From assembly GCA_947499635.1 (NCBI GenBank), contig CANMPD010000005.1, forward strand, positions 62,001 to 126,000: DNA of 64,000 bases, in the 5' to 3' direction. Made by a program: the position numbers and the translations under genes. Each line of letters opens with the position of its first letter. The stretch's first letter is position 1. Origin of the DNA: an uncultured Paracoccaceae bacterium. Lineage in GTDB: Bacteria; Pseudomonadota; Alphaproteobacteria; Rhodobacterales; Rhodobacteraceae. Positions 1,643 to 25,655 of this stretch are shown piece by piece. Below the pieces are notes generated by a model. It was not told the DNA's origin and made no database searches. It was given only the letters and a program-made list of their open reading frames with translations.

Positions 1643-3229
1643 TTAATACCCCAGCGCACAGCCATCTTTTCGGCTGTCGCTACCGCCGTGTAAAATGCCG
1701 TCACCAATGCGGATGGCCTGTGATCCACCAATCGGGCTGGGCATCTGTTTGATCACGTGACCGCGACGTTCAAGCTCTGCACAGACCTCAGCTGGCAACG
1801 TTTCCTCGACTTGCAATTCATCCCCAAAAGCAAAGCTGCGCGGCTGATCCATAGCCGCCTGCAGATCAAGACCTTGATCCACAAGCGCGGAAATAAACGC
1901 GGCTTGTCCTGCCGCTTGATATTGTCCGCCCATTACACCAAACGGCATCACAGGCTTGCCATCCTCTACGGCCAATCCCGGAATAATCGTATGCATCGGT
2001 CGTTTAAACGGTGCAATGGAATTGGGATGTCCTTCGATCAGGCGAAAGCTGGCTCCGCGTGAATGGAACAAAACACCTGTCTGCGGATCAAGCCGTGTCG
2101 AGCCAAACCCATGAAAAATCGAATTGATAAATGAAAGAGTGTTGCCCTCTTCGTCCACGACACAGAGATAAATGGTGTCTTTATGTTCAGGCTCGTCCCA
2201 CAATGCGGGCGGCAAGGCTTTCGTCATGTCGATACGTGCGGCAAGCGCGTCGATAACCGTGTCAGACAACAATAGCTCTGCCACACCTTCACAATCTTCA
2301 GGGTCCGCAATGAGCGCATCGCGATGGTAATAGGCCAGTTTTGTTGCCTCGGCGTGCAAATGGACACGATCTGCGTCACTGACTTCAGGTCCTAGGTCAA
2401 ATTTGGACAGAATGCGCATAATTATCAGGGCGCATAAACCTTGGCCATTGGGCGGGCACTCATAGATATCATAGTTGCCATATTTCGCGGAAATCGGTTT
2501 GGTCCAAAAGGCTTGATCCGCGCCAGCGTGAAAATCTTCTTCGGTTTGCAGACCGCCTAAAGACTGCAAATGTGCAACCATTTTGGCCGCTGTCTCGCCC
2601 TTATAAAACCCATCTGGGCCATGTTCTGCGATTTCAGATAAACGCTCAGCCAACAAAGGCTGCATCATAACATCGCCAACTTTGGGCACCTGCCCCTGTG
2701 GCAAAAAGACCGCCGCAGCATGAGCATCTTGCGCGATGAGCTCTGCATTTTCCGCCCAATCCGCCGCGACACGTGGCGTAATCGGGAAGCCATTTTTTGC
2801 ATAGCCAATTGCGCGTTTAAAAATTTGTGTCAAAGGCAGGCGGCCATGTTCGCGGTGCAAAAGGCACCAAGCAGAAACTGCGCCAGGGATGGTTACGGCA
2901 TGTGGGCTGGTTTGAGGAATTTCATCCGTTAATCCTGCCGCATTTAGCGCTTCAATCGTCGCCGCAGCTGGGGCGCGACCTGATCCATTCAGCGCCATCA
3001 CCTCCCCACCTTTGGGGGCATAAAGGGCAAAACAATCGCCCCCAATACCCGTCATAAGTGGATCAACAACACATTGAACGGCAACTGCTGCAATTGCAGC
3101 ATCTACAGCATTCCCCCCTGATGATAAGATTTCCATTCCCGCCGCTGTACTCAGCGGATGGGACGTGGCAATCATCGCTTGAGAGGCCAGAGTTTCGGGA
3201 CGACGGGCGGAAAAGAAGTTGAAAGCCAT
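1643..3229 (-). CDS. ggt: Gamma-glutamyltransferase family protein (first copy)
   Basis: A 528-residue Ntn-hydrolase of the gamma-glutamyltranspeptidase family, which autocleaves before a threonine and then transfers or hydrolyses gamma-glutamyl groups. The candidate nucleophile is Thr352 in the segment DTIYLCVVDEEGN, and the N-terminal GGNAVDAA motif is present near residue 38. The protein begins directly with the catalytic domain and has no signal peptide, unlike periplasmic E. coli Ggt (about 580 residues), so it is probably cytoplasmic. It is convergent with the class II aldolase gene (27 bases apart) and divergent from a GntR regulator at 3353, which is the likely local regulator. A second family member lies at 11635-13227. 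Confidence 0.88.
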   Translation of the reverse strand: MAFNFFSARRPETLASQAMIATSHPLSTAAGMEILSSGGNAVDAAIAAVAVQCVVDPLMTGIGGDCFALYAPKGGEVMALNGSGRAPAAATIEALNAAGLTDEIPQTSPHAVTIPGAVSAWCLLHREHGRLPLTQIFKRAIGYAKNGFPITPRVAADWAENAELIAQDAHAAAVFLPQGQVPKVGDVMMQPLLAERLSEIAEHGPDGFYKGETAAKMVAHLQSLGGLQTEEDFHAGADQAFWTKPISAKYGNYDIYECPPNGQGLCALIIMRILSKFDLGPEVSDADRVHLHAEATKLAYYHRDALIADPEDCEGVAELLLSDTVIDALAARIDMTKALPPALWDEPEHKDTIYLCVVDEEGNTLSFINSIFHGFGSTRLDPQTGVLFHSRGASFRLIEGHPNSIAPFKRPMHTIIPGLAVEDGKPVMPFGVMGGQYQAAGQAAFISALVDQGLDLQAAMDQPRSFAFGDELQVEETLPAEVCAELERRGHVIKQMPSPIGGSQAIRIGDGILHGGSDSRKDGCALGY

Positions 3230-4996: not shown

Positions 4997-5917
4997 TTAG
5001 TTTTGCGGGGGCAGAGATTTTACGATCCGATGCATGATACCTGCTGTCGCTGCCTCGAGATTGTCACCTTTTAACACGAATAACACCCCCCGCGGTGTCG
5101 TGCGTAAATGTGCCACTGTCGACAGTGGGGCATCAGGCGCAAAGCGGTCGCGCCCCTCGATTTTGTCTAAGACGCAAATATCAGGATGGGCCGAAAGGGT
5201 CTCTTGTATGGTTTGTTTATCTGCCTTTTTATCCAGATCAACCGCAACTGTTATCGTGTGACCCTGCCAAATTGGCACACGCGTTGCAAAAACATCCACA
5301 GCAAAAGCATCTTGAAACAGCAGGCCCAATTCATTGGTCAACGCCTCAACCTCTCCTTCGAGGTGTCCGACGATCTGATTGTGAATGGCAGACGCAGGCA
5401 GCCCCGGTAAATCTGTCCCACTAATCGCCTGCATCGTCGTAATCGTTGTGCGGGTTATACCAAATGCCGCATGAAGCGCGAGCAATGGTGCGGCACAAAT
5501 TGCAGTGGTGCAATTTGGCGTGGACAATAACGCAGTATTTTCATGCGGTGGCTGCGTCACACCAGGCAGACACAATGGCGCAATCTCACGAGCATATTCG
5601 CAGTGACTGATAACTTGCGTTCCTCTCGCCAGATGTTGTGCTTCAATCGTTCTTCCCGACGAATCCGGTAGGAATGACACCATCAAAGGCGCGAGACTTG
5701 GCGCCTCTGGTGACAATATAGGGATTGCCGCACAAGCCGCACGCGCCTGTGCATCTAGTTGCCAGCCTGAAATTTGAGCAGTGTCAGTCGCAGTAAGATC
5801 ACCAAGATCGCCATGTAAGCTTTCAATAGTAATATCAGCATCTTGCGTCATCTTGTTGAGCAAGCTCTGCCCCAGTAAAGTCTCGATTCCAGCGATAGAT
5901 AGGCGAATTTTTGACAT
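4997..5917 (-). CDS. Aspartate-semialdehyde dehydrogenase-like protein
   Basis: A 306-residue protein resembling aspartate-semialdehyde dehydrogenase/USG-1. The catalytic cysteine context STPNCTT is present (Cys136 from this start), as are the substrate-binding segment GEVEALTNELG and the RVP-x3-GH segment with the expected Arg and His. The N-terminal Rossmann glycine motif is degenerate: GIETLLG stands where GATGxVG is normal, so NADP binding is uncertain. The ATG at 5917 was chosen over an upstream in-frame start because GAGGAG precedes it. It is divergent from a GntR gene and its transporter operon, so it may be a specialised catabolic paralogue, not the lysine-pathway enzyme. Confidence 0.75.
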   Translation of the reverse strand: MSKIRLSIAGIETLLGQSLLNKMTQDADITIESLHGDLGDLTATDTAQISGWQLDAQARAACAAIPILSPEAPSLAPLMVSFLPDSSGRTIEAQHLARGTQVISHCEYAREIAPLCLPGVTQPPHENTALLSTPNCTTAICAAPLLALHAAFGITRTTITTMQAISGTDLPGLPASAIHNQIVGHLEGEVEALTNELGLLFQDAFAVDVFATRVPIWQGHTITVAVDLDKKADKQTIQETLSAHPDICVLDKIEGRDRFAPDAPLSTVAHLRTTPRGVLFVLKGDNLEAATAGIMHRIVKSLPPQN

Positions 5918-5986
5918 GAGCTTACTCCTCAAAGGATAAAAGTAATTTATAAAAATGTCTATTTGCTCTAATTGAAATGTCAATAA

Positions 5987-6769
5987 ATGTATTTTGGAAT
6001 TTTTATGTACGATCCATCTTCCCCACTGCTACGTCCTGTTGTCTCCCAAGCAGGGGCACCAAACCCCGAAGCAAAGGCTCGCTTCGCAGAAGATCGCCTG
6101 CTTGATGCGGTTATCTGGTGTGCCCTTACACCAAACGGGACGGTAACCGAGGCAGATGTAATGGAACGTTTCGGCCTAACCAAAGCGGCAGCTCGATCCG
6201 GTTTGGCGCGCCTTGGCTATGACGGATGGGCAACCCCACAACCACGCGCGGGGTGGCTGATCCTACCGATCAGCGGTGCGTTAATCGGACAGATCATAGA
6301 GGCCCGCCGAATTGCAGAAGCTGCATTAGCGACGCTTAAACTCCCTGATGCTGCCTGCGCCGAACTTGAGAATATCGGACAAATACTCCTGCCTCTGGAC
6401 GGTCGTAATGACCCCGGTGTCCTGCGAACGGTTAATCATTACTTGAACCGTATTGACGGGATCATGCTGGAAGCCAGCAACCCTTTTACAGCACGCCATT
6501 TGCGCAAACTGTGGCACCACACAGCCCGGATCACCTACTATTTTGACCAGTTCACGCCAAGTGAAGGGTTTCGGCGCACCGATTGGCCGGACTTGATCAA
6601 AGCCTTATGTGACCGCGACCCCACTGCAATCACGGCTGCACGCACTGATTTGCTTGCGTCACAAGAGACTTATTTTTTGCGCCAGATCCTACGTGACGAG
6701 ACACCGCTAATGTCCGCCATCCCCAATCCCAACGATACCAAAACAAACCTCGACAGGAGAGAACAATGA
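5987..6769 (+). CDS. GntR-like (FCD domain) transcriptional regulator
   Basis: A 260-residue protein with an N-terminal winged helix (about residues 30-95, including VMERFGLTKAAARSGLARLG) and a helical C-terminal domain of FCD type. The GntR match is weaker than for the 3353 gene. The start may be 5987 or the in-frame ATG at 6005; neither has a strong ribosome site and the upstream DNA is very AT-rich. Its stop overlaps the start of the binding-protein gene (ATGA), so it is the first cistron of the transporter operon and probably its regulator. Confidence 0.72.
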   Translation: MYFGIFMYDPSSPLLRPVVSQAGAPNPEAKARFAEDRLLDAVIWCALTPNGTVTEADVMERFGLTKAAARSGLARLGYDGWATPQPRAGWLILPISGALIGQIIEARRIAEAALATLKLPDAACAELENIGQILLPLDGRNDPGVLRTVNHYLNRIDGIMLEASNPFTARHLRKLWHHTARITYYFDQFTPSEGFRRTDWPDLIKALCDRDPTAITAARTDLLASQETYFLRQILRDETPLMSAIPNPNDTKTNLDRREQ

Positions 6770-8256
6770 AACACACGATGAAAGGCTTACTTGGCGCAGT
6801 CGCTATGATCGCGTTTACTTTACCCGCCTATGCGGCCGACATTACCGTCGACTTAGCAGGGGAGCCGTCTTCGCTGGATCCACATCTACAGTGGAACCCA
6901 GACAGTTATTATGTTTACCGTAACATCTTCGACAACTTGCTGACCCGCAGCAACGCTGGAGAGATCGTACCACAAATCGCGACAAGCTGGACCCAGCTTT
7001 CCGAAACCGAACTGGAGCTCACCATTCGCGAAGGTGTCACCTTCCACGATGGGTCATCCCTCACACCAGAAGACGTCGTGTTTTCCGTAAAACGCATCAC
7101 CGACCCTGAATTCGGCTCCCCTCAGTTGGGTCAATTTAACCAAATCACAGACGCCAAGGTTGTCGACGGTAACAAAGTGGTCCTAACCACTGCAGGGGCC
7201 TATCCTGCGTTGATGGCGCAGTTGGTCAAGCTCTCGATCGTCCCGCAAAAGGTTGTCGAAGCCATGGGCAAAGATGCGTTTAACGCTGCCCCAGTTGGCT
7301 CTGGCCCTTATAAGTTCAACGACTGGTCACGCGGTGTGGCTGTTTCCTTGACACGTAACGACGCTTACTGGGGGGATGCAGGCCCGTTCGACAATGCGAC
7401 GTTCCGCGCTGTACCTGACGCAGCAACACGGGTTGCTGATTTGTTAGCAGGAACTGCCGATCTGGTTGTGAGCATCGACGCCGATGCCGGTGCGCAATTG
7501 TCGAGCAACGCAGACGTAAAGCTTTTGTCTGCCCCTACAGAGCGCGTTGGCTACATGGGTCTGAACCTTGACAAAGCGCCGTTTAATGATCTGGACATGC
7601 GCAAAGCTGCCAGCCTCGCGATTGACCGGTTGGGCATTACCGAAGGTCTGCTGCAAGCCGGTGAAGTTCCCGTCTCGCAAATGGCAACCCCGGCCCATTT
7701 TGGTTACTCTGCAGATCTGCCACTGTTTGATTTTGACCCCGAAAAGGCAAAACAGTTGACCTCTGCCAAGGCCGATTTGGCCGCCACACCCATCGAACTG
7801 GCCACCGCGCCTGTGTTTGATCAGCGCATTGTCCAAGCCGTACAACAAATGCTGAATGACGTGGGCTTTAACGTATCGATCAGCATGACCGATATGCCGA
7901 CCTATCTAGGGATCGTACGATCCGAGCCATCTGAAAACTCAGAACTCAGCTTTGGTCGCTGGTCCTGTGCCTGCCAAGATGCTGATGGGATCATCTATCC
8001 AACATTGCATTCGGACAGCGCATGGTCACGGGTGAACCTACCCGAAATCGATGCTCTACTAGAAGAAGCGCGCGTATCGCTAGATCCGGCAGTGCGCCAA
8101 GCCGCCTATGACAAGGTGAACGAGATGGTACGTGAAAACTACTACCTCTTGCCGATGTACCAAGCTGCGGTTCTCTATGGTGCGGCTGCGGATCTCGAAT
8201 TTGATCCAACAGCCAACGAAAGCATGTTCCTCAACCGTATGAGCATCGTCGAGTAA
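6766..8256 (+). CDS. ABC transporter substrate-binding protein, peptide/solute family 5
   Basis: A 496-residue periplasmic binding protein of the SBP_bac_5 (DppA/OppA) family. A Sec signal peptide covers about residues 1-23, ending at AYAA. The family hallmark near residue 85 (VTFHDGSSLTPEDVVFSVKR) is present. It lacks a lipobox, so the mature protein is a free periplasmic one. It starts inside the stop of the regulator gene (ATGA) and is followed after one base by the first permease. Ligands in this family range over peptides, opines and glutathione; the enclosed gamma-glutamyltransferase hints at a gamma-glutamyl or amide ligand. Confidence 0.9.
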   Translation: MKHTMKGLLGAVAMIAFTLPAYAADITVDLAGEPSSLDPHLQWNPDSYYVYRNIFDNLLTRSNAGEIVPQIATSWTQLSETELELTIREGVTFHDGSSLTPEDVVFSVKRITDPEFGSPQLGQFNQITDAKVVDGNKVVLTTAGAYPALMAQLVKLSIVPQKVVEAMGKDAFNAAPVGSGPYKFNDWSRGVAVSLTRNDAYWGDAGPFDNATFRAVPDAATRVADLLAGTADLVVSIDADAGAQLSSNADVKLLSAPTERVGYMGLNLDKAPFNDLDMRKAASLAIDRLGITEGLLQAGEVPVSQMATPAHFGYSADLPLFDFDPEKAKQLTSAKADLAATPIELATAPVFDQRIVQAVQQMLNDVGFNVSISMTDMPTYLGIVRSEPSENSELSFGRWSCACQDADGIIYPTLHSDSAWSRVNLPEIDALLEEARVSLDPAVRQAAYDKVNEMVRENYYLLPMYQAAVLYGAAADLEFDPTANESMFLNRMSIVE

Positions 8257-8257
8257 A

Positions 8258-9184
8258 ATGGTACGCTTCCTGCTCAATCGTGGTGGACAGGCCCTGATCG
8301 CGGTGTTCGGTGTGGTGACGCTGGTGTTTTTTATCCAGCGTCTCTCTGGCGATCCCACAGCGCTTTTACTGCCCGAAACTGCGACGCAGGCAGACATCGA
8401 GGCCATGCGCGTGACGCTTGGCCTCGATCGCCCGATGATCGTACAATATTTCGCCTTTTTAGGTGATCTTATCCGGTTCGATCTCGGACGCAGCTATGTT
8501 CAAAATGCAGACGTTTGGGACATCATCTCAAGTCGTATACCCCGCACATTACAACTCGCTGGCGGCGCCATGGCCGTCGCATTGCTAATTGGCGTGCCAG
8601 TAGGCGTTATCATGGCCCTCACACGGGGGCGGCGCATTTCAAAAGCCCTGATGTGGTTGATCCTAGCCTTTCAATCCATGCCGACGTTTTGGAGTGGCAT
8701 CACTATGATCTTGGTCTTTGGTGTCTGGCTCAGGTGGCTGCCTTCGTCGGGAACCGGTACTTTTGCGCATCTTATCATGCCCTCTATTGCGCTTGGCCTG
8801 CTGTCTCTGGCAACCTATGCCCGCATTACACGATCCGCTGTTTTAGATGAGTTGAGCAAAGATTATGTTCGCTCAGCCCGGGCGCGTGGCGTCGAAACTG
8901 GGCGGTTGGTGCGCCATCATCTGATGCGCAATTCATTGATCCCGATTATCTCGATCACTGCACTTGAACTGTCTCAATTGCTAGCAGGTGCCGTTATCGT
9001 AGAGACTGTTTTTGCATGGCCGGGCCTTGGGCTCCTCACAGTTCAGAGCATCGCAGCGCGTGACTTTCTTGTGGTTCAAGCTATTGTTTTACTTGGGGCT
9101 TTTGTGACCATATTTGCTAATGTCGCTGCAGATATTTTATATTCTGCAGTTGATCCGCGTGTGCGTCTGGCAGGAAAAACATGA
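8258..9184 (+). CDS. ABC transporter permease, DppB type
   Basis: A 308-residue inner-membrane permease of the DppB/OppB type. It starts with an N-terminal membrane segment, followed by the periplasmic loop typical of DppB (LSGDPTALLLPE..., then the QYFAFLGDLIRFDLGRSY region). The EAA coupling loop is visible as DYVRSARARGVETGRLVRHHLMRNSLIPI. It forms the channel with the downstream DppC-type protein, and the two genes overlap by ATGA. Confidence 0.92.
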   Translation: MVRFLLNRGGQALIAVFGVVTLVFFIQRLSGDPTALLLPETATQADIEAMRVTLGLDRPMIVQYFAFLGDLIRFDLGRSYVQNADVWDIISSRIPRTLQLAGGAMAVALLIGVPVGVIMALTRGRRISKALMWLILAFQSMPTFWSGITMILVFGVWLRWLPSSGTGTFAHLIMPSIALGLLSLATYARITRSAVLDELSKDYVRSARARGVETGRLVRHHLMRNSLIPIISITALELSQLLAGAVIVETVFAWPGLGLLTVQSIAARDFLVVQAIVLLGAFVTIFANVAADILYSAVDPRVRLAGKT

Positions 9185-10017
9185 CACTAAAACGCTTTTC
9201 GCTTTCCGGATTTCTATCGTTATGGCCTGCTTGGATTTTACTCTCATTGGTCGTGGCAGCCCTTTTTGCCCCTGCCATCGTTCCATTTGATCCAGACCGA
9301 CAAAACTTGCTAGCCCGTCTCAAGCCACCCGGTTTTGAATCCCGCGGCGCAGCCTATTTCCTAGGCTCGGATGAATTAGGTCGTGATGTCCTGTCTCGTC
9401 TGATCTACGGAGCCCGAATCTCGTTGGCCGTCGCGGCTTTGTCAGTGATCCTATCCGGCGCAGTTGGTATCTTGGTCGGCATGGCCGCTGGTTATCTACG
9501 CGGTTGGAGCGAAACCATCTTGATGCGTTTGGTCGATATCTTTTTGTCGATACCCGCCATTTTGCTGGCCATTATCACTGTTGCCGTTTTGGGGCCGGGC
9601 TTTATCAATGTAATCTTGGTTCTCGCACTTACCCGCTGGCCCCGTTATGCGCGTGTTGCCTATGGACAAACCCTGGCCATCGCAGATCGCCCGTTCGTGC
9701 AGTTAGCGCGCGCCATGGGCTCTAGCCCATGGCGAGTCTTGGCCATCCATATTTTACCCAATATCATTGGCCCCCTCATGGTCGTCGCCACATTGGAATT
9801 TGGATTGATGGTTCTGTTCGAAGCAGGTCTATCCTTTCTTGGCCTAGGGGTGCAGCCGCCTACCGCGAGCTGGGGTTCCATGATGTCCTCGGGGCGCAAC
9901 TATATTGCAACCGCATGGTGGATTACGATGTTCCCCGGCATCGCCCTGTTTTTGTTGGTTCTCAGCGCAAACCTTATTGGTGATCGGTTTAGCGATCACA
10001 TCGGAGATGGAAAATAA
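9181..10017 (+). CDS. ABC transporter permease, DppC type
   Basis: A 278-residue permease. The early motif LGSDELGRDVLSRLIYGARISL is diagnostic of DppC/OppC proteins. The EAA loop (VQLARAMGSSPWRVLAIHILPN) and the conserved end FEAGLSFLGLGVQPP...WGSMM are also present. It overlaps the DppB gene (ATGA) and the SDR gene (TAATG), which places an enzyme gene inside the transporter operon. Confidence 0.92.
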   Translation: MTLKRFSLSGFLSLWPAWILLSLVVAALFAPAIVPFDPDRQNLLARLKPPGFESRGAAYFLGSDELGRDVLSRLIYGARISLAVAALSVILSGAVGILVGMAAGYLRGWSETILMRLVDIFLSIPAILLAIITVAVLGPGFINVILVLALTRWPRYARVAYGQTLAIADRPFVQLARAMGSSPWRVLAIHILPNIIGPLMVVATLEFGLMVLFEAGLSFLGLGVQPPTASWGSMMSSGRNYIATAWWITMFPGIALFLLVLSANLIGDRFSDHIGDGK

Positions 10018-10775
10018 TGCAATTCGGATCTGAATTCACTGACAAACGTGTGGTTGTCACAGGTGCCGCAGGCATCATGGGGCGCGCCTTGTGCCAAACC
10101 TTTGCAGATGCAGGTGCAACGGTCTGCGCAACCGACCTCAGCACTGATACGCTAAGCGGATTTAGTGTTGCTGCTGACCTGACCACAGACGCGGGATTAG
10201 AAACATTATTACAGGCTGTCGAACAAGAATGGGGTGCACCGGACATCGTCATTAACAACGCCGCCCTCTACCCCTCATCCTTTCTGCTCGACCTAGAAGT
10301 CGATGACTGGGATCGTATTATGCAGGTTAACGTACGTGCACCTTTTGTCCTGATGCGTGGGTTTGCCCTGCAAATGATTGCACAGAAACAACCCGGAGCG
10401 TTTGTCAATATTTCATCCGGCGCGGCGCGTAAAATGCGACGTACAGCAGTGACCTATTGTATGTCCAAAACCGCCCTAGATCGCATGACCAAGGGTTTTG
10501 CGCTCGAGTTGGCCGAATACGGTATTCGGGTGAATTGCCTAGAACCCGGCTTTGCCTCCGGAAGTACAGTATCAGCCCTGTCTCAGGAACACATCGATCG
10601 CGTTGTCGCCGCCATTCCTCTCGGTGCCGAAACCACAGCCGAAGACGTAGGCCAAGCCGCGTTATATTTGGCCTCTTCAGCCGCAAAGAACGTTACAGGC
10701 ACGTCGCTTGCCGTGGATGGTGGCAATTCGGCAGGGGTCATGGATGTCTACCAAAGTAAAAAGAGCGCGCTGTGA
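10017..10775 (+). CDS. SDR family oxidoreductase
   Basis: A 252-residue classical short-chain dehydrogenase. The NAD(P)-binding TGAAGIMGRAL lies near residue 16, the NNAA motif near residue 80, the active-site serine in NISSGAA near residue 133 and the YxxxK pair in TYCMSK near residue 148. The C-terminal VDGG is typical. Since it is translationally coupled to the transporter, it most likely oxidises or reduces an alcohol/ketone group of the imported compound or a breakdown product. The substrate is not predictable. Confidence 0.88.
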   Translation: MQFGSEFTDKRVVVTGAAGIMGRALCQTFADAGATVCATDLSTDTLSGFSVAADLTTDAGLETLLQAVEQEWGAPDIVINNAALYPSSFLLDLEVDDWDRIMQVNVRAPFVLMRGFALQMIAQKQPGAFVNISSGAARKMRRTAVTYCMSKTALDRMTKGFALELAEYGIRVNCLEPGFASGSTVSALSQEHIDRVVAAIPLGAETTAEDVGQAALYLASSAAKNVTGTSLAVDGGNSAGVMDVYQSKKSAL

Positions 10776-11638
10776 TCTGGGATCCTCAACCTTACAGCTG
10801 GCCACAGGGATATAAATCTGCCGCCTGTTTCACCGTTGATGTGGATGCGACAGCCCCCTACCGATGGCAGCATCGCGACCAAACACCCAACACACTGGCT
10901 GCGCTGGAGCACCGCCGCTTTGGCATGCGCCGTGGCTTGGCTCGCATGGTCGCCATGCTTCAACGCGTCGGCATGCGCGGCACATTCTTTGTGCCGGCCT
11001 GCGTCGCACAAGACAATCCCGATCTGCTCACAGGGTTACTGGAGCGTGGCCAAGAAATTGCCTTGCACGGGTATTTTCACGAACTGGTCAATGACATCTC
11101 GGACACAGAGTTTACCGACGCCCTAGAGCAATCAATCGATCTGTTCATCGCCCAGACGGGTCAAAAGCCCGTCGGGTTTCGATCTCCGGCTTGGGAAATG
11201 ACACCGCATATGTTGTCAGAGCTTGCCCGTCTCGATCTTTGGGACAGCAGCCTGATGGGCGAAGATGTGCCCTATGAAATTGCAAACGTGCCGGAAATTC
11301 CAGTCCGCTGGGACAATGATGACGCGATCTTTTTCAAATTTCTTGGCGCGGGTGATAAAACGCCCCGCCCTGATTTTGAGGTCGCCCGCCAATGGCAAGA
11401 CGAGGCACAAGCGCTGTTTGACGAAAACGCGCTCTTTATGCTCACCGTTCATGACTGGATTTCAGGACGCGCCAATCGCGTTAAAATGCTAGAAAATTTG
11501 CTGACATCCTTTGTATCGCGACCGGATGTCTGGGTCGCCAGTTGCGGTGAAATAGCCGCCCATCACAAAGCCCAAAAAACGATGTTGCGCGTTTCAGCTG
11601 ACCTCGCCCAGCCGATCGGACATAAGGGATTGGAATGA
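10772..11638 (+). CDS. Polysaccharide deacetylase-fold amidohydrolase
   Basis: A 288-residue NodB/carbohydrate-esterase-4 fold protein. The metal-binding aspartates are seen in FTVDVDA (about residue 20) and the His pair in HGYFHE (about residue 94); RSPAWE follows near residue 134. There is no signal peptide, so it acts in the cytoplasm. This points to the PuuE/HpPgdA-like branch, which hydrolyses C-N bonds of small amides or cyclic imides such as allantoin, and away from cell-wall chitin. It starts with GTG overlapping the SDR stop (GTGA) and ends overlapping the gamma-glutamyltransferase gene. Confidence 0.82.
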   Translation: MIWDPQPYSWPQGYKSAACFTVDVDATAPYRWQHRDQTPNTLAALEHRRFGMRRGLARMVAMLQRVGMRGTFFVPACVAQDNPDLLTGLLERGQEIALHGYFHELVNDISDTEFTDALEQSIDLFIAQTGQKPVGFRSPAWEMTPHMLSELARLDLWDSSLMGEDVPYEIANVPEIPVRWDNDDAIFFKFLGAGDKTPRPDFEVARQWQDEAQALFDENALFMLTVHDWISGRANRVKMLENLLTSFVSRPDVWVASCGEIAAHHKAQKTMLRVSADLAQPIGHKGLE

Positions 11639-13227
11639 ATACACAAGACAAAGGGCACCCCATGCCGATACCTGCCGCCGCTCATCAACTTTGGTCCATC
11701 ACAAAGCCGCAGGTCGAAAGTCACGGGGGTATTGTTGCCGCACAACACTTTGAAGCCGCACAAATTGGGGCTGATATCTTAGCAGCAGGCGGCAATGCAA
11801 TGGATGCTGCCGTGGCAACCGCCATCGCGCTTTCCGTGGCTGAACCCTGGCTGTCAGGATTAGGCGGCGGCGGGTTTTTACTGCACGCTGACGCCCAAGG
11901 TACTATTGACACGCTTGACTTTAATATGCGTGCACCTGCGGCGACCAACCCTGCTGATTATCCTCTTACTGGCGGAGAGGGCGGCGATTGGTTTAACTGG
12001 CCGTCTGTGCAGGACGACCGTAATATTATCGGCGCCCTATCGATCTGCGTACCCGGCGCTGTGGCCGGCTTGGCAGCAGGCCTTGAGAAATATGGAACTC
12101 TCAGCTGGGCAGAAGTCTGTGAGCCCTCGATTACCTTAGCAGAGCGCGGCATGCGCGTCGATTGGTTCGCCGATCTGGTTTTCGCAATCGACCAGCCCGG
12201 CCTGTCCCGCACCGAAGCCGCGACAAACCTGTTCCTTGATCCGACACGTCGCAAACCCGATCCGGCCGATCCGACTTCGCGGCTACTGCCCATGCCCGGA
12301 CAGGCCACCATGTTACGCCGCCTCGCACAAGCTGGCCCATTAGATTTCTACCACGGTGAAATAGCCTGTACACTGATTGACGATCTGTCAGCCGCTGGCT
12401 GTCCAATGACGCTTGCGGATCTTCAAGCTTATAAACCTCACTGGCGTCCTGCTGCCAGCGCCGCTTATCGTGACCGGCAAGTCCACACCATTCCCGGCCT
12501 CTCTGGAGGGCCAAGCCTGTTATCCGCCTTTGATGAGCTGTCCAAACACGACCTTGGCAACACTGACGAAGCTCAATTCTCTACTCTCCATGCCAATGCA
12601 ATCCGTACTGCCTATGAGACGCGTTTGAAAACCATGGGGCACGCTGCTGCCGCACAGGATTGCACCAGCCATCTGTCCGTGATTGATAGTGCCGGTAATA
12701 TGGTTTCACTCACCAATACACTGTTGTCGCGTTTTGGGTCCAAAATTGTCTCACCAAGTCATGATTTGGTTATGAACAACGGGATGATGTGGTTTGACCC
12801 TCGTCCAGACCAAGCCAATTCTATCGCACCAAATGCAACGCCGTTGGCCAATATGGCCCCTGTGATCACAACCCGAAATGGTCTCCCCGATATTGCCATT
12901 GGAGCTGCGGGCGGGCGGCAAATTTTCCCGGCTCTGCTGCAGTTGTTATCACGCTTGATTGACCGCGGCGACACGCCAGAAACCGCGCTGCATGCACCGC
13001 GCATCGACGCCAGCACGCCATTGATTGTTGTAAACCGCGCCGCAACTCATGATACAGCAGCAGCGGTCGCAGCCCACCATGCCGTGCAAATCTCCGAAGA
13101 CAGTTTGTACCCCGTTCAATTCGCCATCCCCTCTATGGTGCAGGCTGGTCGAGACGGAGCACCAAACATCGGTGCCGTACACCCCAACAACCCATGGACC
13201 GCCGCCCGAAGTGAGATCACGACATGA
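11635..13227 (+). CDS. Gamma-glutamyltransferase family protein (second copy)
   Basis: A 530-residue Ntn-hydrolase of the gamma-glutamyltranspeptidase family without a signal peptide. The predicted nucleophile is Thr344 in DCTSHLSVIDSAGN; GGNAMDAA and SGLGGGG are conserved near residues 52 and 74. An in-frame ATG at 11662 is an alternative start, but 11635 gives the ATGA overlap seen throughout this operon. It differs clearly from the copy at 1643-3229. Within a transporter operon it probably cleaves a gamma-glutamyl or similar acyl-amide bond of the imported solute in the cytoplasm. Confidence 0.87.
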   Translation: MNTQDKGHPMPIPAAAHQLWSITKPQVESHGGIVAAQHFEAAQIGADILAAGGNAMDAAVATAIALSVAEPWLSGLGGGGFLLHADAQGTIDTLDFNMRAPAATNPADYPLTGGEGGDWFNWPSVQDDRNIIGALSICVPGAVAGLAAGLEKYGTLSWAEVCEPSITLAERGMRVDWFADLVFAIDQPGLSRTEAATNLFLDPTRRKPDPADPTSRLLPMPGQATMLRRLAQAGPLDFYHGEIACTLIDDLSAAGCPMTLADLQAYKPHWRPAASAAYRDRQVHTIPGLSGGPSLLSAFDELSKHDLGNTDEAQFSTLHANAIRTAYETRLKTMGHAAAAQDCTSHLSVIDSAGNMVSLTNTLLSRFGSKIVSPSHDLVMNNGMMWFDPRPDQANSIAPNATPLANMAPVITTRNGLPDIAIGAAGGRQIFPALLQLLSRLIDRGDTPETALHAPRIDASTPLIVVNRAATHDTAAAVAAHHAVQISEDSLYPVQFAIPSMVQAGRDGAPNIGAVHPNNPWTAARSEITT

Positions 13228-14180
13228 GCTTGCTGACCATCCAAGATCTGGCGATACGCACCAATGATCTCTCCCTTGTGGATGGGGTGACGCTGGATGT
13301 CCAAAAGGGTGAAGTGGTCGCCTTGGTGGGGGAAAGCGGCTCTGGGAAATCTTTGACAGCAATGTCAGTGATGGGTTTGCTGGGTGATGGGCTCTTTGTG
13401 GACGGCGGCACCATAAAGTTTGATGATACAGACCTAACACAAGCCTCTTCGACCACCTTGAACCGATTGCGCGGCAACGAGATTGCCATGATTTTTCAAG
13501 AACCTGTTTCTTCGCTCAATCCACTGTTGTCGGTGGGCGCGCAGGTGGCAGAAAGTTTGGTCGTTCATGGCCGTGCCTCGCCCGCGCAGGCATATACAAA
13601 AGCAATCGAGATGCTGCGCCAAGTCGGCATTCCTGAACCCGAAAGCCGCGCGCGCCAATTGCCTTCGGAGTTGTCAGGGGGCATGTGCCAACGGGTGATG
13701 ATCGCGGCCGCCTTAATTTCTAATCCGCGGCTGTTGATCGCGGATGAACCAACAACAGCGCTGGATGTCACCATCCAAGCCCAAATTTTAGATCTTATGA
13801 AAGATCTAACCGCGCGCTCTGATACGGCTATTTTATTGATCACGCATGACATGGGCGTTGTCGCAGAACTCGCCGATCGAGTCTGTGTTATGTACGGCGG
13901 AAGTGTCGTTGAACAAGGCCCTGTCGACGATATCTTTGAGGCCCCGCATCATCCCTACACGCAGATGCTGCTCAAAACGTTACCTCGCCTAGACGAACCC
14001 CCCAAAGGCGCGCTGTTCGCGATCCCTGGAAATGTACCCAGCCCCAAAGATTGGCCCAACGGCTGCAGGTTCCAATCCCGCTGCGATCGCCCCTCTGACA
14101 GGTGTCAAACCCGCCCACTATTGCAAGGGTCCGAGACACACCGCTTTGCCTGTTTTCACCCTGTGGGAGATGCCTCATGA
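13224..14180 (+). CDS. ABC transporter ATP-binding protein, DppD type
   Basis: A 318-residue ATPase. It has Walker A GESGSGKS near residue 36, an ABC signature LSGGMCQRV near residue 152 (the usual Q after GG is replaced by M), Walker B LLIADEPT near residue 172 and the H-loop ITHD. The C-terminal oligopeptide-transporter extension carries its cysteine-containing segment (CRFQSRCDR...RCQTRP). It is coupled by ATGA to the gamma-glutamyltransferase before it and the DppF gene after it. Confidence 0.92.
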   Translation: MSLLTIQDLAIRTNDLSLVDGVTLDVQKGEVVALVGESGSGKSLTAMSVMGLLGDGLFVDGGTIKFDDTDLTQASSTTLNRLRGNEIAMIFQEPVSSLNPLLSVGAQVAESLVVHGRASPAQAYTKAIEMLRQVGIPEPESRARQLPSELSGGMCQRVMIAAALISNPRLLIADEPTTALDVTIQAQILDLMKDLTARSDTAILLITHDMGVVAELADRVCVMYGGSVVEQGPVDDIFEAPHHPYTQMLLKTLPRLDEPPKGALFAIPGNVPSPKDWPNGCRFQSRCDRPSDRCQTRPLLQGSETHRFACFHPVGDAS

Positions 14181-15148
14181 CTCTGCTTTCGGTCGAAGAT
14201 CTACGCGTCTATTTTCCGGTGCGCACAGGGAAGTTCGGAGCGACTCCAGCCGTTGTGAAAGCCGTCGACGGCGTGTCACTTACCATCGGTGCCAATGAAA
14301 CACTCGCCATCGTTGGAGAAAGCGGTTGCGGAAAATCCACAACGGGCAATGCGATCCTCGGTTTGGCACAGATCACCAGCGGTACGGTCCGCTTCGAAGG
14401 TCGCGATCTATCCGAGCTAGGCTCGCGAGACCGCGCTCAGATATGGCGCGATATGCAGGTCGTATTCCAAGATCCGGTTTCTGCGCTCAATCCGCGCCGC
14501 ACCATTGCTCAGTCTATTGCGGAACCACTGGAAATCCACGGTTATCCAAAAGCTGAGATCAAACAGCGGGTGGATGAACTGCTCGCGCTTGTTGGTCTAA
14601 ACGCAGATCAACGTGACCGCCGCCCCAAAGCCCTCTCTGGCGGGCAACGCCAAAGGGTCGTCATCGCACGTGCTTTGGCCCTGAATCCCAAACTGATTAT
14701 CTGCGACGAAGCGGTCTCGGCCCTGGATGTTTCAATCCAAAGCCAGATCCTTAATCTGCTGATGCGCTTACAATCCGAGTTAGGGCTCAGCTATCTGTTC
14801 ATCGCCCATGATCTGTCTGTCGTGCGCCACATAGCAGACCGCGTCGCAATCATGTACCTTGGTCTGGTTGTAGAAGAGGGCCCCGCAGAGCAAGTATTTG
14901 CAAACCCCATCCATCCTTATACCCAAGCATTGATTTCCGCGATCCCCCTGCCCGATCCCAAGCAACGTAATTCCGGGCGCCGTATTATTCTCAAAGGTGA
15001 TCTACCAAGCCCATTGAACCCTCCAGTAGGTTGCCCTTTTGTAACACGGTGCCCCGAGGCCCAAGACCGCTGCAGCCAGACACGCCCACCTCTTGTTGTG
15101 TCCTCAGACGGGTCGCGCCACAGTCGGTGCTTTGTCCACAGCCTGTAG
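14177..15148 (+). CDS. ABC transporter ATP-binding protein, DppF type
   Basis: A 323-residue ATPase with Walker A GESGCGKS, the Q-loop QDPVSALNPRRT, signature LSGGQRQR, Walker B LIICDEAVSALDVS and the cysteine-containing C-terminal oligopeptide-transporter extension. The ATG at 14177 was chosen because it overlaps the DppD stop in the ATGA pattern and gives a normal N-terminus; the frame continues upstream inside the DppD gene. It is the last gene of the operon; no clear terminator follows. Confidence 0.92.
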   Translation: MTLLSVEDLRVYFPVRTGKFGATPAVVKAVDGVSLTIGANETLAIVGESGCGKSTTGNAILGLAQITSGTVRFEGRDLSELGSRDRAQIWRDMQVVFQDPVSALNPRRTIAQSIAEPLEIHGYPKAEIKQRVDELLALVGLNADQRDRRPKALSGGQRQRVVIARALALNPKLIICDEAVSALDVSIQSQILNLLMRLQSELGLSYLFIAHDLSVVRHIADRVAIMYLGLVVEEGPAEQVFANPIHPYTQALISAIPLPDPKQRNSGRRIILKGDLPSPLNPPVGCPFVTRCPEAQDRCSQTRPPLVVSSDGSRHSRCFVHSL

Positions 15149-15416
15149 ATACCGAGAACCCGACCTGAACGCACCTTCTAGAATTTCCGAAGATGAGGGC
15201 GACACTTTGAAACCTGTTGCGTAGCAATACTGCGCCACAGGCATCTTCGTTCTGCAAAATTCACACCGTTACATCGCGAAATCAACTATCTGAGACGACG
15301 CGCGTTTGATTTCTCAAAACACTGTTACTCGCCACGCTGCGGCATTTATTCTTGTGCGCCTTCCACCCTATGTACTGGAAGAGCACAATTTTGACACAGT
15401 GCCATTGGAGAATTCG

Positions 15417-16577
15417 ATGTTAACGAGATCCATTACCATAGGCTTATTAAGTTTCCTCACTTTGATTGATCTTTTTGGATCACAAGCAATCCTGCCGCAG
15501 CTCACAGAATTTTATAATACCGACCCAGCATCGATGGGATTGGCAGCCAATGCGTCTACTTTTGGAATGGCAGCTGCTGGTTTGGTGGTTGCCTTACTTA
15601 GTCGTCACATAGACCGCGTTAAGGGTATTTGGCTAAGTCTTGCCCTGTTGGCAATTCCAACAACTCTTCTTGGTTTTGTGGATAGCCTGACCCTTTTCAC
15701 TTGGCTCAGAATTGCTCAGGGGGCTTTGATGGCCACCGCATTCACTCTTACCATGAGTTACCTTGCCGAGGAATGCAGCACCGAAGAGGCCGCAGGCGCT
15801 ATGGCGGCTTATATAACCGGAAACGTTCTTTCTAATCTTGTCGGTCGATTGATGGCCGCGAATTTTGCAGATTGGTTTGGGCTTTCAATCAGCTTTTGGC
15901 TGTTTGCCTTACTGAATATCGCAGGGGCGTTCCTCGCTTATCTATGTCTTTCTCAAGGGACGCCACGGACGTCCAATCCAGACAGCCCATCTGTGATGCA
16001 GGTCTGGAAAATCCATCTCACAAATCCGCGTTTACAAGCGAGTTTCCTACTTGGATTCTTGATTTTGTTCATCTTCTTATCTGTATTCACCTATGTGAAT
16101 TTTGTACTGTCGACCGAACCATTTTCTTTAACAGGTAAGCAGCTTGGCTTTGTCTACTTCGTCTTTTTGCCTGCTGTATTTACAACGCCACTGGCTGGCA
16201 AAATGGTCTCTTACCGCGGTGCATATTTTGGCTTCAAGATGTCAATGGGATTGGCGTTTATCGGCTTGCTTGCCTTGTTGACAAGCATGTTGCCCCTCGT
16301 CATTTTGGGGCTTATGGCCGTAGGGATAGGAACCTTTTGCGCACAAGCTGTCGTTTCCGGACAGGTCGGTGCTTCTGCAACTGCGGATCGCGCGACAGCC
16401 AGCGGTTTGTATTTAACCAGTTACTATTTTGGCGGTTTAATCGGTGCGGCTGTAATCGGGCGTATCTTTACCGCAAGTGGTTGGAATACCGCCGTTATTA
16501 TACTTCTTCTTGTTACGGCAGCATCGATGGTCATTGCCAGACCACTCGCGAAGCCAATTTCAAATACGACAAATTAA
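15417..16577 (+). CDS. MFS transporter
   Basis: A 386-residue major facilitator protein with about 12 hydrophobic segments and an arginine-containing loop (RHIDRVKG) after the second one. The ATG at 15417 follows TTGGAG at 15405-15410 and gives a standard N-terminus entering the first membrane helix at once; a longer in-frame reading adds an unlikely 37-residue extension. It stands 48 bases before bdhA in the same direction, so a role in uptake or export of a substrate linked to 3-hydroxybutyrate is possible but unproven. Confidence 0.85.
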   Translation: MLTRSITIGLLSFLTLIDLFGSQAILPQLTEFYNTDPASMGLAANASTFGMAAAGLVVALLSRHIDRVKGIWLSLALLAIPTTLLGFVDSLTLFTWLRIAQGALMATAFTLTMSYLAEECSTEEAAGAMAAYITGNVLSNLVGRLMAANFADWFGLSISFWLFALLNIAGAFLAYLCLSQGTPRTSNPDSPSVMQVWKIHLTNPRLQASFLLGFLILFIFLSVFTYVNFVLSTEPFSLTGKQLGFVYFVFLPAVFTTPLAGKMVSYRGAYFGFKMSMGLAFIGLLALLTSMLPLVILGLMAVGIGTFCAQAVVSGQVGASATADRATASGLYLTSYYFGGLIGAAVIGRIFTASGWNTAVIILLLVTAASMVIARPLAKPISNTTN

Positions 16578-16625
16578 CACGCACGTCCACCTGCCGTGGA
16601 ACGCGCTCATATATGGAGCATTGAC

Positions 16626-17408
16626 ATGAGTGACACAAAAACAGCCGTCGTTACGGGATCTTCGAGCGGAATTGGCCTTGGTATTGCCAATGGCCTCGCA
16701 GCCGCCGGCATGAACATTGTTATGAACGGCATTGAAAATGCTGATGATGTCGAACCAGCACGCAAACAGCTTGAAGCCGATCATGGGATCAAAGCGGTGT
16801 ATTCAGCCGCAAATATGATGGACCCTGAAGGTCCTGCAAAACTCATTGAATTTGCACAAGAAACATTTGGTCGGGTCGATGTCTTGGTGAACAATGCGGG
16901 CATTCAATATGTTTCGCCTGTCGAAGATTTCCCGAACGAAAAATGGCAGGCCATCATTAACCTGAACCTGTCAGCGGCATTTTATGCAACAAAAGCTGTT
17001 GTTCCCGGCATGAAAGAGAGTGGGTGGGGTCGGATTATCAACATTGCATCCGCACATGGCTTGGTCGCTTCCCCATTCAAGTCTGCTTATGTCGCTGCAA
17101 AACATGGTATTGTTGGTTTCACCAAAACCATCGCGCTTGAAACAGCCGAGAACGGTATCACCGTTAATGCCATATGCCCCGGATACGTCTGGACACCGCT
17201 GGTCGAAAAGCAAATTCCAGATACGGCAAAAGCTCGTGGCATGACCGAAGAGCAAGTAAAACGCGACGTCTTGCTGGCAGCGCAACCAACGAAGCAATTC
17301 GCAACTGTCGAGGAAATGGCGGCTCTTGCTGTATTCCTTTGCACAGACGGTGCGAAATCAATCACAGGTACTGCCCTGCCTGTTGATGGTGGCTGGACAG
17401 CGCATTGA
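16626..17408 (+). CDS. bdhA: 3-hydroxybutyrate dehydrogenase
   Basis: A 260-residue SDR enzyme that interconverts D-3-hydroxybutyrate and acetoacetate with NAD. It has TGSSSGIGLGIA at residues 10-21, NNAG at 89-92, and the catalytic Ser142, Tyr155 and Lys159. Length and the ending LPVDGGWTAH match BdhA closely. The ATG at 16626 follows TGGAG. The next gene (cupin) starts 19 bases later, then a patatin. BdhA next to a patatin is a recurring alphaproteobacterial arrangement linked to polyhydroxybutyrate or hydroxybutyrate-ester turnover. Confidence 0.92.
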   Translation: MSDTKTAVVTGSSSGIGLGIANGLAAAGMNIVMNGIENADDVEPARKQLEADHGIKAVYSAANMMDPEGPAKLIEFAQETFGRVDVLVNNAGIQYVSPVEDFPNEKWQAIINLNLSAAFYATKAVVPGMKESGWGRIINIASAHGLVASPFKSAYVAAKHGIVGFTKTIALETAENGITVNAICPGYVWTPLVEKQIPDTAKARGMTEEQVKRDVLLAAQPTKQFATVEEMAALAVFLCTDGAKSITGTALPVDGGWTAH

Positions 17409-17427
17409 TTTGCCAAAGGATCACAAC

Positions 17428-18309
17428 ATGAAACTTCTTTCTGTAATGACTGCCTGTGCATTAGGTGTCACTGCCAGTGCGACTTTTGCTTTCGATTTGG
17501 ATGAGGTCAAAACCAAAGTCATACTTGACCTAACCGGACCCGCACAGGGAGCTATGATTAGCTCAAAAGTGACGGCGACACAGCCTCTTGAAAAAGAAGG
17601 TATCGCTGAATTGGCAGGTAGAAAGCTGCGCACCCGGTTCTGGGCGGTCAAAGGCCCGGGTGGAATTGTGCCTATTCACGAACATAGCAGTCGCCCTGCG
17701 ATGTTCACCGTTGCGTCTGGTGAAATTCTCGAACACTCAAGTCTTGAAGAAGAGCCAATAGTCCACAAAAGAGGTGGCTTAGCCAAAGAATCTGGAGAAT
17801 TGGCTCATTGGTGGCACAATGCAGGCTCTGAAACAGTGCATTTGATCGCTTTTGACGTGCAACCCGTAGCAAAAGACTATGCAGCCGTCGCGCTATCCCC
17901 CAAACCGGTCAGCCCCTCGTTTGACATGCCGGCAACGAAGGATGCGCAAAATGACCTGTTAGGGGTTATCGACTTGGGTGAGCACTTCAACCAAGAATAT
18001 GGTACCGGCTGGGTTCTGTCGACATATCGCGCAACAATTGAACCAGGTGGAATTCTACCGGATTTCACAGGTCCAGGTGAGCCGTTACAGGCTTTCGTTT
18101 GGACAGGTGACGTCCAAGAGTATCGCTCGGACAATCCGACGCCTGTAACGTTAAATGCGCACAGTGGCAGCAATCTCGGTGATGGCACAACGGCGTATTG
18201 GAAAAACACTGGTGATATTGCGGCAGAGGTCTACTTTGGCGTTATTGAGCCAACCAGCGAAATCAGTGGTATCAAGCCAGTCGGTATTTTAGCGCATGGC
18301 GCGCACTGA
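17428..18309 (+). CDS. Secreted bicupin-like protein
   Basis: A 293-residue protein with a Sec signal peptide (about residues 1-20, cleavage after TFA). Two beta-barrel halves are apparent: one around residues 60-150 with IPIHEHSSRPAMF, and a second around 180-285 carrying EPGGILPDFTGPGEP. The first resembles a cupin motif 1 (H-x-H ... E); the second lacks the histidines, so it may be structural only. It sits between bdhA and a patatin and is probably cotranscribed. It may act periplasmically on a hydroxybutyrate-related compound; no activity can be assigned. Confidence 0.65.
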   Translation: MKLLSVMTACALGVTASATFAFDLDEVKTKVILDLTGPAQGAMISSKVTATQPLEKEGIAELAGRKLRTRFWAVKGPGGIVPIHEHSSRPAMFTVASGEILEHSSLEEEPIVHKRGGLAKESGELAHWWHNAGSETVHLIAFDVQPVAKDYAAVALSPKPVSPSFDMPATKDAQNDLLGVIDLGEHFNQEYGTGWVLSTYRATIEPGGILPDFTGPGEPLQAFVWTGDVQEYRSDNPTPVTLNAHSGSNLGDGTTAYWKNTGDIAAEVYFGVIEPTSEISGIKPVGILAHGAH

Positions 18310-24329: not shown

Positions 24330-25655
24330 ATGACCGTAGATCTCGCTGAATACGCCGCTGAAAAAGGCGTAAAATACTTCATGATAAGCTTCACCGACCT
24401 GTTTGGGGGGCAACGGGCCAAGCTGGTCCCAGCGCAAGCGATTGCTGACATGCAGCAAGATGGCGCGGGATTTGCAGGGTTTGCGACATATCTGGATATG
24501 ACACCTGCGCATCCTGACATGCTTGCTGTGCCTGATCCGTCGTCCGTTACCCAGTTGCCATGGAAACCCGAGGTCGCTTGGGTCGCAGGCAACTGCGTCA
24601 TGGAAGGGCAAGACGTGGCCCAAGCCCCGCGAAATGTCTTGCGCAAGCTGATCGACGAAGCGGCCGACGAAGGTCTACGCGTAAAAACAGGGATTGAGGC
24701 TGAGTATTTCCTGCTGACCCCTGATGGCAGCCAAATTAGCGATGAATATGACACGGCTGCCAAGCCCTGCTATGATCAACAGGCTGTAATGCGACGCTAT
24801 GATGTGGTCCGCGAAATTTGCGATTACATGCTAGAGCTGGGTTGGGGCCCCTACCAAAACGATCACGAAGACGCCAATGGCCAATTCGAGATGAACTGGG
24901 AATATGACGACGCGCTCAAAACCGCTGACAAGCACTCCTTTTTTAAGTTCATGACCAAATCGGTTGCGGAAAAGCACGGCTTTCGCGCAACCTTTATGCC
25001 CAAACCAATCGAAGGCCTGACTGGAAACGGCTGTCACGCCCATATTTCCGTTTGGGATATGGCAGGCGAAACCAATGTATTCGCGATGGAGCCAAACGAC
25101 AGCTCGCAAACTGCTGAGTTGGGCCTGTCAGATCAAGGCCGGCACTTTCTTGGCGGCATTATGAAACATGCCAGCGCCTTGGCTGCGATCACCAATCCAA
25201 CGGTGAACAGCTATAAGCGGATCAATGCGCCACGCACAATGTCCGGCGCGACCTGGGCACCAAATTCCGTGACATGGACCGGCAACAACCGCACGCATAT
25301 GGTACGTGTTCCAGGTCCTGGCCGATTTGAATTGCGCTTGCCCGACGGAGCCGTAAACCCGTATTTGCTTCAAGCGGTTATTATCGCAGCAGGCCTGTCC
25401 GGTATCCGCTCCAAATCTGACCCGGGGCCACGTTATGATATTGACATGTATGCCGAAGGTCACACAATCAGTGGCGCACCAAAACTGCCATTGAACATGC
25501 TAGATGCGATGCGGGAATATGACAAAGACGAAGGTCTCAAGGCTGCTATGGGTCAAGAGTTTTCACAGTCTTATGTCAAAATGAAACTGCAGGAATGGGA
25601 TAGCTTTGTAGGCTATTTCAGCCAATGGGAAAAAGACCATACATTGGACATCTAA
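24330..25655 (+). CDS. glnT: Type III glutamine synthetase-like ligase, GlnT
   Basis: A 441-residue member of the glutamine synthetase superfamily of the rhizobial GlnT kind. Active-site blocks are visible: GIEAEYFLL, NGQFEMNW, GNGCHAHIS and the RVPGPGRFELRLPD segment near the C-terminus. GlnT joins glutamate with ammonia; related enzymes use methylamine (GmaS) or ethanolamine (Streptomyces GlnA4). Because it lies between glxBCD and eutBC, it may either capture ammonia from ethanolamine or make a gamma-glutamyl amide. The ATG at 24330 follows an AGGG ribosome site. Confidence 0.87.
   Translation: MTVDLAEYAAEKGVKYFMISFTDLFGGQRAKLVPAQAIADMQQDGAGFAGFATYLDMTPAHPDMLAVPDPSSVTQLPWKPEVAWVAGNCVMEGQDVAQAPRNVLRKLIDEAADEGLRVKTGIEAEYFLLTPDGSQISDEYDTAAKPCYDQQAVMRRYDVVREICDYMLELGWGPYQNDHEDANGQFEMNWEYDDALKTADKHSFFKFMTKSVAEKHGFRATFMPKPIEGLTGNGCHAHISVWDMAGETNVFAMEPNDSSQTAELGLSDQGRHFLGGIMKHASALAAITNPTVNSYKRINAPRTMSGATWAPNSVTWTGNNRTHMVRVPGPGRFELRLPDGAVNPYLLQAVIIAAGLSGIRSKSDPGPRYDIDMYAEGHTISGAPKLPLNMLDAMREYDKDEGLKAAMGQEFSQSYVKMKLQEWDSFVGYFSQWEKDHTLDI

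Follow-up and report, generated by a model that had tools for sequence, protein, structure and literature searches.

Several described systems share parts with the locus analysed here. In Aspergillus nidulans, the short-chain dehydrogenase (SDR) HxnW, the cyclic imidase HxnM and the amide hydrolase HxnN are described as successive enzymes for a hydroxylactam, an imide and a half-amide, respectively, and HxnM is presented as structurally close to HP0310 (PMC9304392). HP0310 itself is reported to be inactive on allantoin and has no assigned substrate (PMC3084791; PMC9304392). In E. coli, iaaA adjoins gsiABCD, which brings an intracellular Ntn hydrolase next to a peptide-type ABC importer. Within the gamma-glutamyltransferase (GGT) family, HpxW is an oxamate amidohydrolase.

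The cassette found in the window (the whole stretch of 64,000 nucleotides that was analysed) resembles the Hxn set, as far as the latter is described, in having an SDR, then an HP0310-like putative cyclic imidase and then a predicted amide hydrolysis, and no homology of the whole pathway is claimed. The Hxn set is fungal and is not known to include a coupled ABC importer, and HxnN belongs to another amidase family than that of the cassette. The iaaA-gsiABCD pair differs in its isoaspartyl peptidase, which is not of the GGT fold, in the lack of an SDR and a deacetylase and in its importer, which takes up glutathione. The deacetylase of the cassette lies in the same fold branch as PuuE (3cl6) and HP0310 (3qbu), but falls far below the PuuE cut-off and is only 22-24% identical to HP0310. 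Its amidase has the fold and the Thr nucleophile of GGT, the family of HpxW, and it differs from GGT in its replaced gamma-glutamyl pocket. The preliminary description knew of no pathway with this exact set, and no operon of this kind was found in the open-licence literature, most subscription literature lying outside this search.

Gene organization

Nine co-directional genes at 6005-15148 (+) were confirmed by the ORF table and by Pfam and NCBIfam scans of the window. A coupled nine-gene operon with a divergent gene resembling aspartate-semialdehyde dehydrogenase (ASADH) had been described, and all ten genes are present; the operator pair, the loss of the gamma-glutamyl pocket and the broad host range reported below go beyond that description. 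The features are as follows:

4997..5917, minus strand: ASADH-like semialdehyde dehydrogenase, divergent, optional member
5950..5961, plus strand: operator half 1, TAAAAATGTCTA, matching TTGACATGTCAA at 8 of 12 positions
5972..5983, plus strand: operator half 2, TTGAAATGTCAA, 22 bp from half 1
6005..6769, plus strand: GntR/FCD-type regulator (ortholog profile and model match)
6766..8256, plus strand: family-5 solute-binding protein (SBP), signal-peptide-like start by eye, motif RWSCACQDADG
8258..9184, plus strand: ABC permease B (Pfam/NCBIfam scans)
9181..10017, plus strand: ABC permease C (Pfam/NCBIfam scans)
10017..10775, plus strand: SDR, probably NAD-dependent (Asp40; Ser134, Tyr147 and Lys151 invariant)
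10772..11638, plus strand: polysaccharide-deacetylase-fold amidohydrolase, complete metal site (Asp23, Asp25, His99, His103, His227)
11635..13227, plus strand: GGT-fold Ntn amidase (Thr344), gamma-glutamyl pocket lost (residue alignment)
13224..14180, plus strand: ABC ATPase D (Pfam/NCBIfam scans)
14177..15148, plus strand: ABC ATPase F (ORF table, Pfam/NCBIfam scans)

Seven of the eight junctions overlap, by four bases (regulator-SBP, B-C, SDR-deacetylase, deacetylase-GGT, GGT-D and D-F) or by one (C-SDR), and the remaining one, SBP-B, is a 1-base gap. The earlier coordinates began at 5918, the base next to the end of the ASADH-like gene at 5917; the gene set itself stood, with the regulator start refined to 6005 instead of 5987 (the ATG of MYDP, common to orthologs) and that of ATPase F to 14177. 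Judged by eye only, none of the three enzymes has a signal peptide. At gathering thresholds, Rfam gave no match in the window. The sigma-70 promoter scan returned 7 candidates against 8.3 in shuffles, and the 19 terminator candidates (11.0 in shuffles, sd 3.3), found on both strands and also within genes, were set aside.

Conservation and host distribution

The order regulator-SBP-B-C-SDR-deacetylase-GGT-D-F was kept at every one of the 19 further loci whose deacetylase is a close relative (18 complete loci and L061, which begins at a contig end within permease B), a conservation far beyond chance. Deviations were limited to a second binding-protein gene in L041 and a regulator of only 26% identity in L044. 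A search for the same order in other Rhodobacterales had been proposed; it does occur there, but is not confined to them: the hosts named are Jannaschia (with J. faecimaris DSM 100420, L059), Kandeliimicrobium, Tropicibacter, Ruegeria, Pseudoponticoccus, Maliponia and a Marinibacterium MAG, as well as Ahrensia (Hyphomicrobiales), a Rhizobiaceae MAG and three Granulosicoccus (Gammaproteobacteria). Within the order, close relatives of the deacetylase (at least 54% identity) were present in 10 of 292 genomes, the source genome counted, whereas any match at 0.001 was obtained in 256 of 292, the next best being at most 37% identical. The class-wide search (385 genomes, 1e-50) found matches in four genomes, again including the source. 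Of the 12 loci obtained by scanning genome contigs, two have contigs of the same length as two from the first search, and each such pair entered the total as a single locus.

All-against-all comparison of the flanks (ORFs of at least 120 aa, loci of 12-21 kb) revealed no recurrent catabolic partner. The families recurring in at least 3 of 20 loci were ABC ATPases (7), an SDR group (4) and a third one from L042, L043 and the window (24330-25655); Pfam assigned some of the flanking genes to unrelated families or gave no match.

The ASADH-like gene was divergent from the regulator in 7 of the 19 loci with that side visible, the window included, and was not found in the other 12. Its relation to ASADH is clear (2ep5, 4.3e-24; Pfam dimerisation domain above cut-off), and Cys158, Gln185 and His242 (numbering of the 328-aa ORF) are invariant in all six aligned proteins, while NCBIfam TIGR00978 scored 88.2 against a curated 301.2. 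A semialdehyde end of the pathway, as proposed before, may thus be an option in some hosts, given this occurrence in 7 of 19 loci.

Plasmid copies and mobility

An unrooted tree computed from all nine genes at 18 loci grouped the window with the Rhizobiaceae and Marinibacterium MAGs, apart from L041, which comes from its own genus, and placed Granulosicoccus among the alphaproteobacteria. Pairwise gene-distance correlations across the nine genes were 0.85-0.95, as expected if the block is inherited as one, in a statistic that ignores shared host history. From these sequences, the cassette appears to travel as a unit between marine and soil bacteria.

The deacetylase matched 275 records of the plasmid collection at 1e-15, and among the best 60 of these, 17 were at least 45% identical. 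Fifteen of the 17 records were opened, and a GGT gene adjoined the deacetylase in 12; it was absent nearby in those from Pseudoroseomonas, Roseomonas and Burkholderia stagnalis. All 14 plasmid GGT matches of at least 50% identity, among those listed, belong to the same 17 records, the rest of those listed being at most 44% identical. Gene content of L078, L084, L085, L091, L092 and L093, which are unannotated stretches, was established by BLAST only. On the A. tumefaciens CFBP5877 plasmid, the set falls into two groups of opposite direction and is accompanied by a further SBP and a prolidase-like amidohydrolase; such a prolidase-like gene adjoins two Agrobacterium copies. A RidA gene closes the set in four plasmid copies from Hyphomicrobiales (two Microvirga, Acuticoccus, Rhizobium CC-CFT758). 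L089 and L090, from one alphaproteobacterial genus (deacetylase 44% identical), have SDR-deacetylase-D-F without a GGT gene, one of them on a 6.4-kb contig; together with the three plasmid records, they suggest that the amidase is not always needed. L090 also holds an SBP and both permeases. Seven phage records had GGT matches, the five listed being 26-34% identical.

In L083 (Rhizobium sp. CC-CFT758, 13376-17990), the cassette is followed by RidA, an isoaspartyl peptidase, two SBP genes and a creatininase-family gene, so that parts of two cluster types, the GGT cassette and the isoaspartyl-peptidase cluster described below, stand side by side.

Regulator and tandem operator

Neither Pfam (at 0.001) nor NCBIfam (at 1e-10) gave a match for the regulator. 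Its ortholog profile matched GntR/FCD structures (3fms, 5.5e-13) and its model (pLDDT 81.9) matched GntR regulators (7u5q, E 5.5e-8, TM 0.58), which assigns it, by profile and fold, to the GntR/FCD proteins with an HTH and a helical FCD-like domain. Upstream of it, TTGACATGTCAA or a near form stands twice, 22 bp apart. The sample comprised 25 upstream regions, from 18 of the 20 cassette loci (L044 and L061 left out) and 7 plasmid copies, and was compared with single-base shuffles. A site of at least 9/12 within 130 bp was present in 21 of 25 regions (shuffles: mean 1.4, largest 4), a figure that is partly circular because the consensus was taken from these same regions. The spacing control is not circular: two sites of at least 8/12 exactly 22 bp apart occurred in 16 of 25 regions (shuffles: mean 0.02, largest 1), and any other spacing from 14 to 31 in at most 2 of 25. 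The nine regions without the 22-bp pair were those of all six Hyphomicrobiales plasmid copies in the sample, L041, L056 and L066.

In the source genome, an exact TTGAMATGTCAA occurs only here, at half 2, as does the exact tandem pair (5950-5983). Allowing one mismatch, the tandem pattern was found at four places against two in the control, one of them exact, at this locus; single sites with at most one mismatch numbered 34 against 25 for the reversed pattern (about 1.4-fold), and three single sites with two mismatches were found in the window against 3.7 expected. On these counts, no regulon is claimed beyond this site. The GntR/FCD protein would bind the tandem operator and may keep the operon repressed as long as the substrate or an early intermediate is absent.

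Importer and binding protein

The Dpp-type importer is complete, with an SBP, two permeases and two ATPases. In DppA and OppA, D408 and D419, respectively, are given as the Asp that binds the alpha-amino group of peptides (PMC9967938). This residue is replaced by Ala402 in all 19 aligned cassette SBPs (the second SBP of L041 was left out) and is Ala in the three plasmid first SBPs and Gly in one second SBP. The replacement argues against plain peptides, though GsiB, the glutathione binder of E. coli, also lacks the Asp and has a Ser there; the imported solute is probably not a plain peptide. NCBIfam GsiB scored 125.1 on the cassette protein against a cut-off of 594. AccA and AgaA come after 5u4o among its nearer solved relatives. 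Residues 398-408 read RWSCACQDxDG in the 19 aligned copies, a stretch in which two invariant cysteines flank the site that holds the peptide-binding Asp elsewhere.

SDR and deacetylase-fold enzyme

The SDR has Asp40, which we take as a mark of NAD preference, and invariant Ser134, Tyr147 and Lys151, a motif presumably of its usual meaning in SDRs; the enzyme is probably NAD-dependent. In the deacetylase, the metal- and water-holding residues Asp23, Asp25, His99, His103 and His227 are invariant in all 20 cassette copies and correspond to Asp12, Asp14, His86, His90 and His247 of HP0310, so that its metal site is that of the cyclic imidase/HP0310 branch. It groups with HP0310 and PuuE and not with N-acetyl deacetylases. 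Identity as a PuuE allantoinase was considered and rejected (TIGR03212, 58.1 bits against a cut-off of 424.6).

SDR and deacetylase form the most constant pair: an SDR gene lay within 1.5 kb of the deacetylase gene at all 9 close loci and at 10 of the 20 distant ones, a raw rate without background. Seven distant clusters (L046, L047, L049, L050, L053, L055, L076) are of a distinct conserved type, with genes for a GntR regulator, a creatininase-family protein, a PanE-like protein, an SDR, a deacetylase and an isoaspartyl peptidase that run divergently from those of a peptide-type ABC importer. They share with the cassette an importer, an SDR, a deacetylase and an Ntn hydrolase, and differ from it in a deacetylase of 33-34% identity, another Ntn family and two more enzymes. 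The open-licence literature yielded no description of them.

Putative GGT-fold amidase

The cassette enzyme passes the Pfam cut-off for GGT (313.1 against 27), and its catalytic residues (Ec T391, T409, G483, G484) are kept in all 27 aligned cassette GGTs. By contrast, none of the six gamma-glutamyl contacts (Ec R114, N411, Q430, D433, S462, S463), some of whose roles are general background, is kept in any of the 27, these positions holding N (S in one protein), L, G, W, A and N, respectively. NCBIfam TIGR00066 scored 264.5 bits against a curated 357.85. In the source genome, the L001 GGT keeps R114, D433, S462 and S463. Part of the six contact roles are given in PMC8062742, where extremophile GGTs are described with Ser and His-Thr at three pocket sites and some mutants remain active; pocket changes are thus not absolute. 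The residues nevertheless argue against the gamma-glutamyl substrate proposed earlier, and suggest that an entire branch of proteins now annotated as gamma-glutamyltransferase bears the wrong name, with consequences for the pathways predicted from marine and rhizobial genomes.

Proposed pathway and alternative substrates

A dedicated unit for import and intracellular degradation, as first proposed, is well supported. Gene order, conservation and spread, residues and operator sequence were observed directly; for activities and substrate, we infer the following. The SDR-deacetylase pair, the distant clusters with an Ntn hydrolase and the HxnW-HxnM-HxnN order favour a substrate-specific catabolic cassette with oxidation by the SDR, opening of an imide or lactam ring and amide hydrolysis, a reading that we hold with somewhat more doubt than confidence. 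The SBP, permeases B/C and ATPases D/F, judging by their family, would take up a small molecule with an amide bond. In the cytoplasm, the SDR would use NAD to oxidise a hydroxyl or hydroxylactam, and the product, a cyclic imide or lactam, would be opened by the metal-dependent deacetylase-fold enzyme, judging by its family branch. As the amidase keeps its Ntn site but has lost the gamma-glutamyl pocket, it would then split the remaining amide into a carboxylate and ammonia or an amine. A side product may be handled by the ASADH-like enzyme in some hosts and by RidA or the prolidase-like amidohydrolase in others. Cyclic imides, listed among the possible substrates in the preliminary description, are hence retained as one candidate, and gamma-glutamyl amides are not. 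Weak points of the imide reading are the lack of an assigned substrate for HP0310 and the copies without GGT.

A wider picture is more tentative still. The cassette might be a mobile one for an unnamed, presumably widespread cyclic imide or hydroxylactam, its GGT-fold Ntn hydrolase turned half-amide amidase, in a larger family where the SDR and a deacetylase-fold imidase are fixed and the third enzyme, an Ntn amidase, is swapped between a GGT-like and an isoaspartyl-peptidase-like form. The compact conserved set of parts (one SBP, one operator, three enzymes) offers a route to identifying an environmental nitrogen compound by ligand and growth tests.

Among the alternatives, a linear modified peptide or N-acyl amino acid, from which the deacetylase would remove the acyl group before the GGT-like enzyme cleaves the amide and the SDR oxidises a hydroxy acid, is unlikely but deserves weight. 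The importer is of the peptide type, a sister GGT subfamily occurs in an operon SBP-B-C-D-F-GGT-M20 peptidase, and a peptide-like amide would agree with the prolidase-like gene next to two Agrobacterium copies, a point against the imide reading. However, the SBP lacks the Asp for the alpha-amino group, and the deacetylase belongs on the HP0310/PuuE side of its fold, apart from the N-acetyl deacetylases. Salvage of a gamma-glutamyl amide or glutathione-like compound, the first substrate of the preliminary description, is very unlikely: the GGT fold with its intact nucleophile, the iaaA-gsiABCD neighbourhood and the absence of the peptide-binding Asp from GsiB too would suit it, but the six replaced contacts and the low GGT and GsiB scores oppose it. 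Highly improbable is the uptake of an opine or Amadori-type lactam (agropinic-acid-like), akin to that by the agrocinopine/AgaA binding proteins; AccA and AgaA do follow 5u4o among the nearer solved proteins, and plasmid copies occur in agrobacteria and Rhizobium tumorigenes, but these matches are to a very broad family and many copies are in marine genera, for which we know of no opine contact. Hardly credible, finally, is a catabolism of the pantothenate type, with pantothenase (Ntn), pantoate dehydrogenase (SDR) and aldopantoate dehydrogenase (ASADH-like), which covers these three enzymes and recalls the PanE-like protein of the distant clusters, but gives no function to the deacetylase, which accompanies the SDR most constantly, and relies on an ASADH-like gene that 12 of the 19 loci assessable for it did not show.

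Other GGT-family genes

The source genome has four GGT-family genes, and two of the three proteins other than that of the cassette also lack the pocket residues. A second such gene in the window (1643-3229, minus strand), adjoining a class II aldolase-like gene (797-1615), has the Ser and His-Thr pocket of extremophile GGTs. The sister subfamily, marked by NNGxxWFDP and perhaps also misnamed, was found in other importer or ring-cleavage-like operons (L102-L105) of Ruegeria TM1040, A. leguminum p4, Aminobacter MSH1 and Ketogulonicigenium, the operon with the M20 peptidase being one of them.
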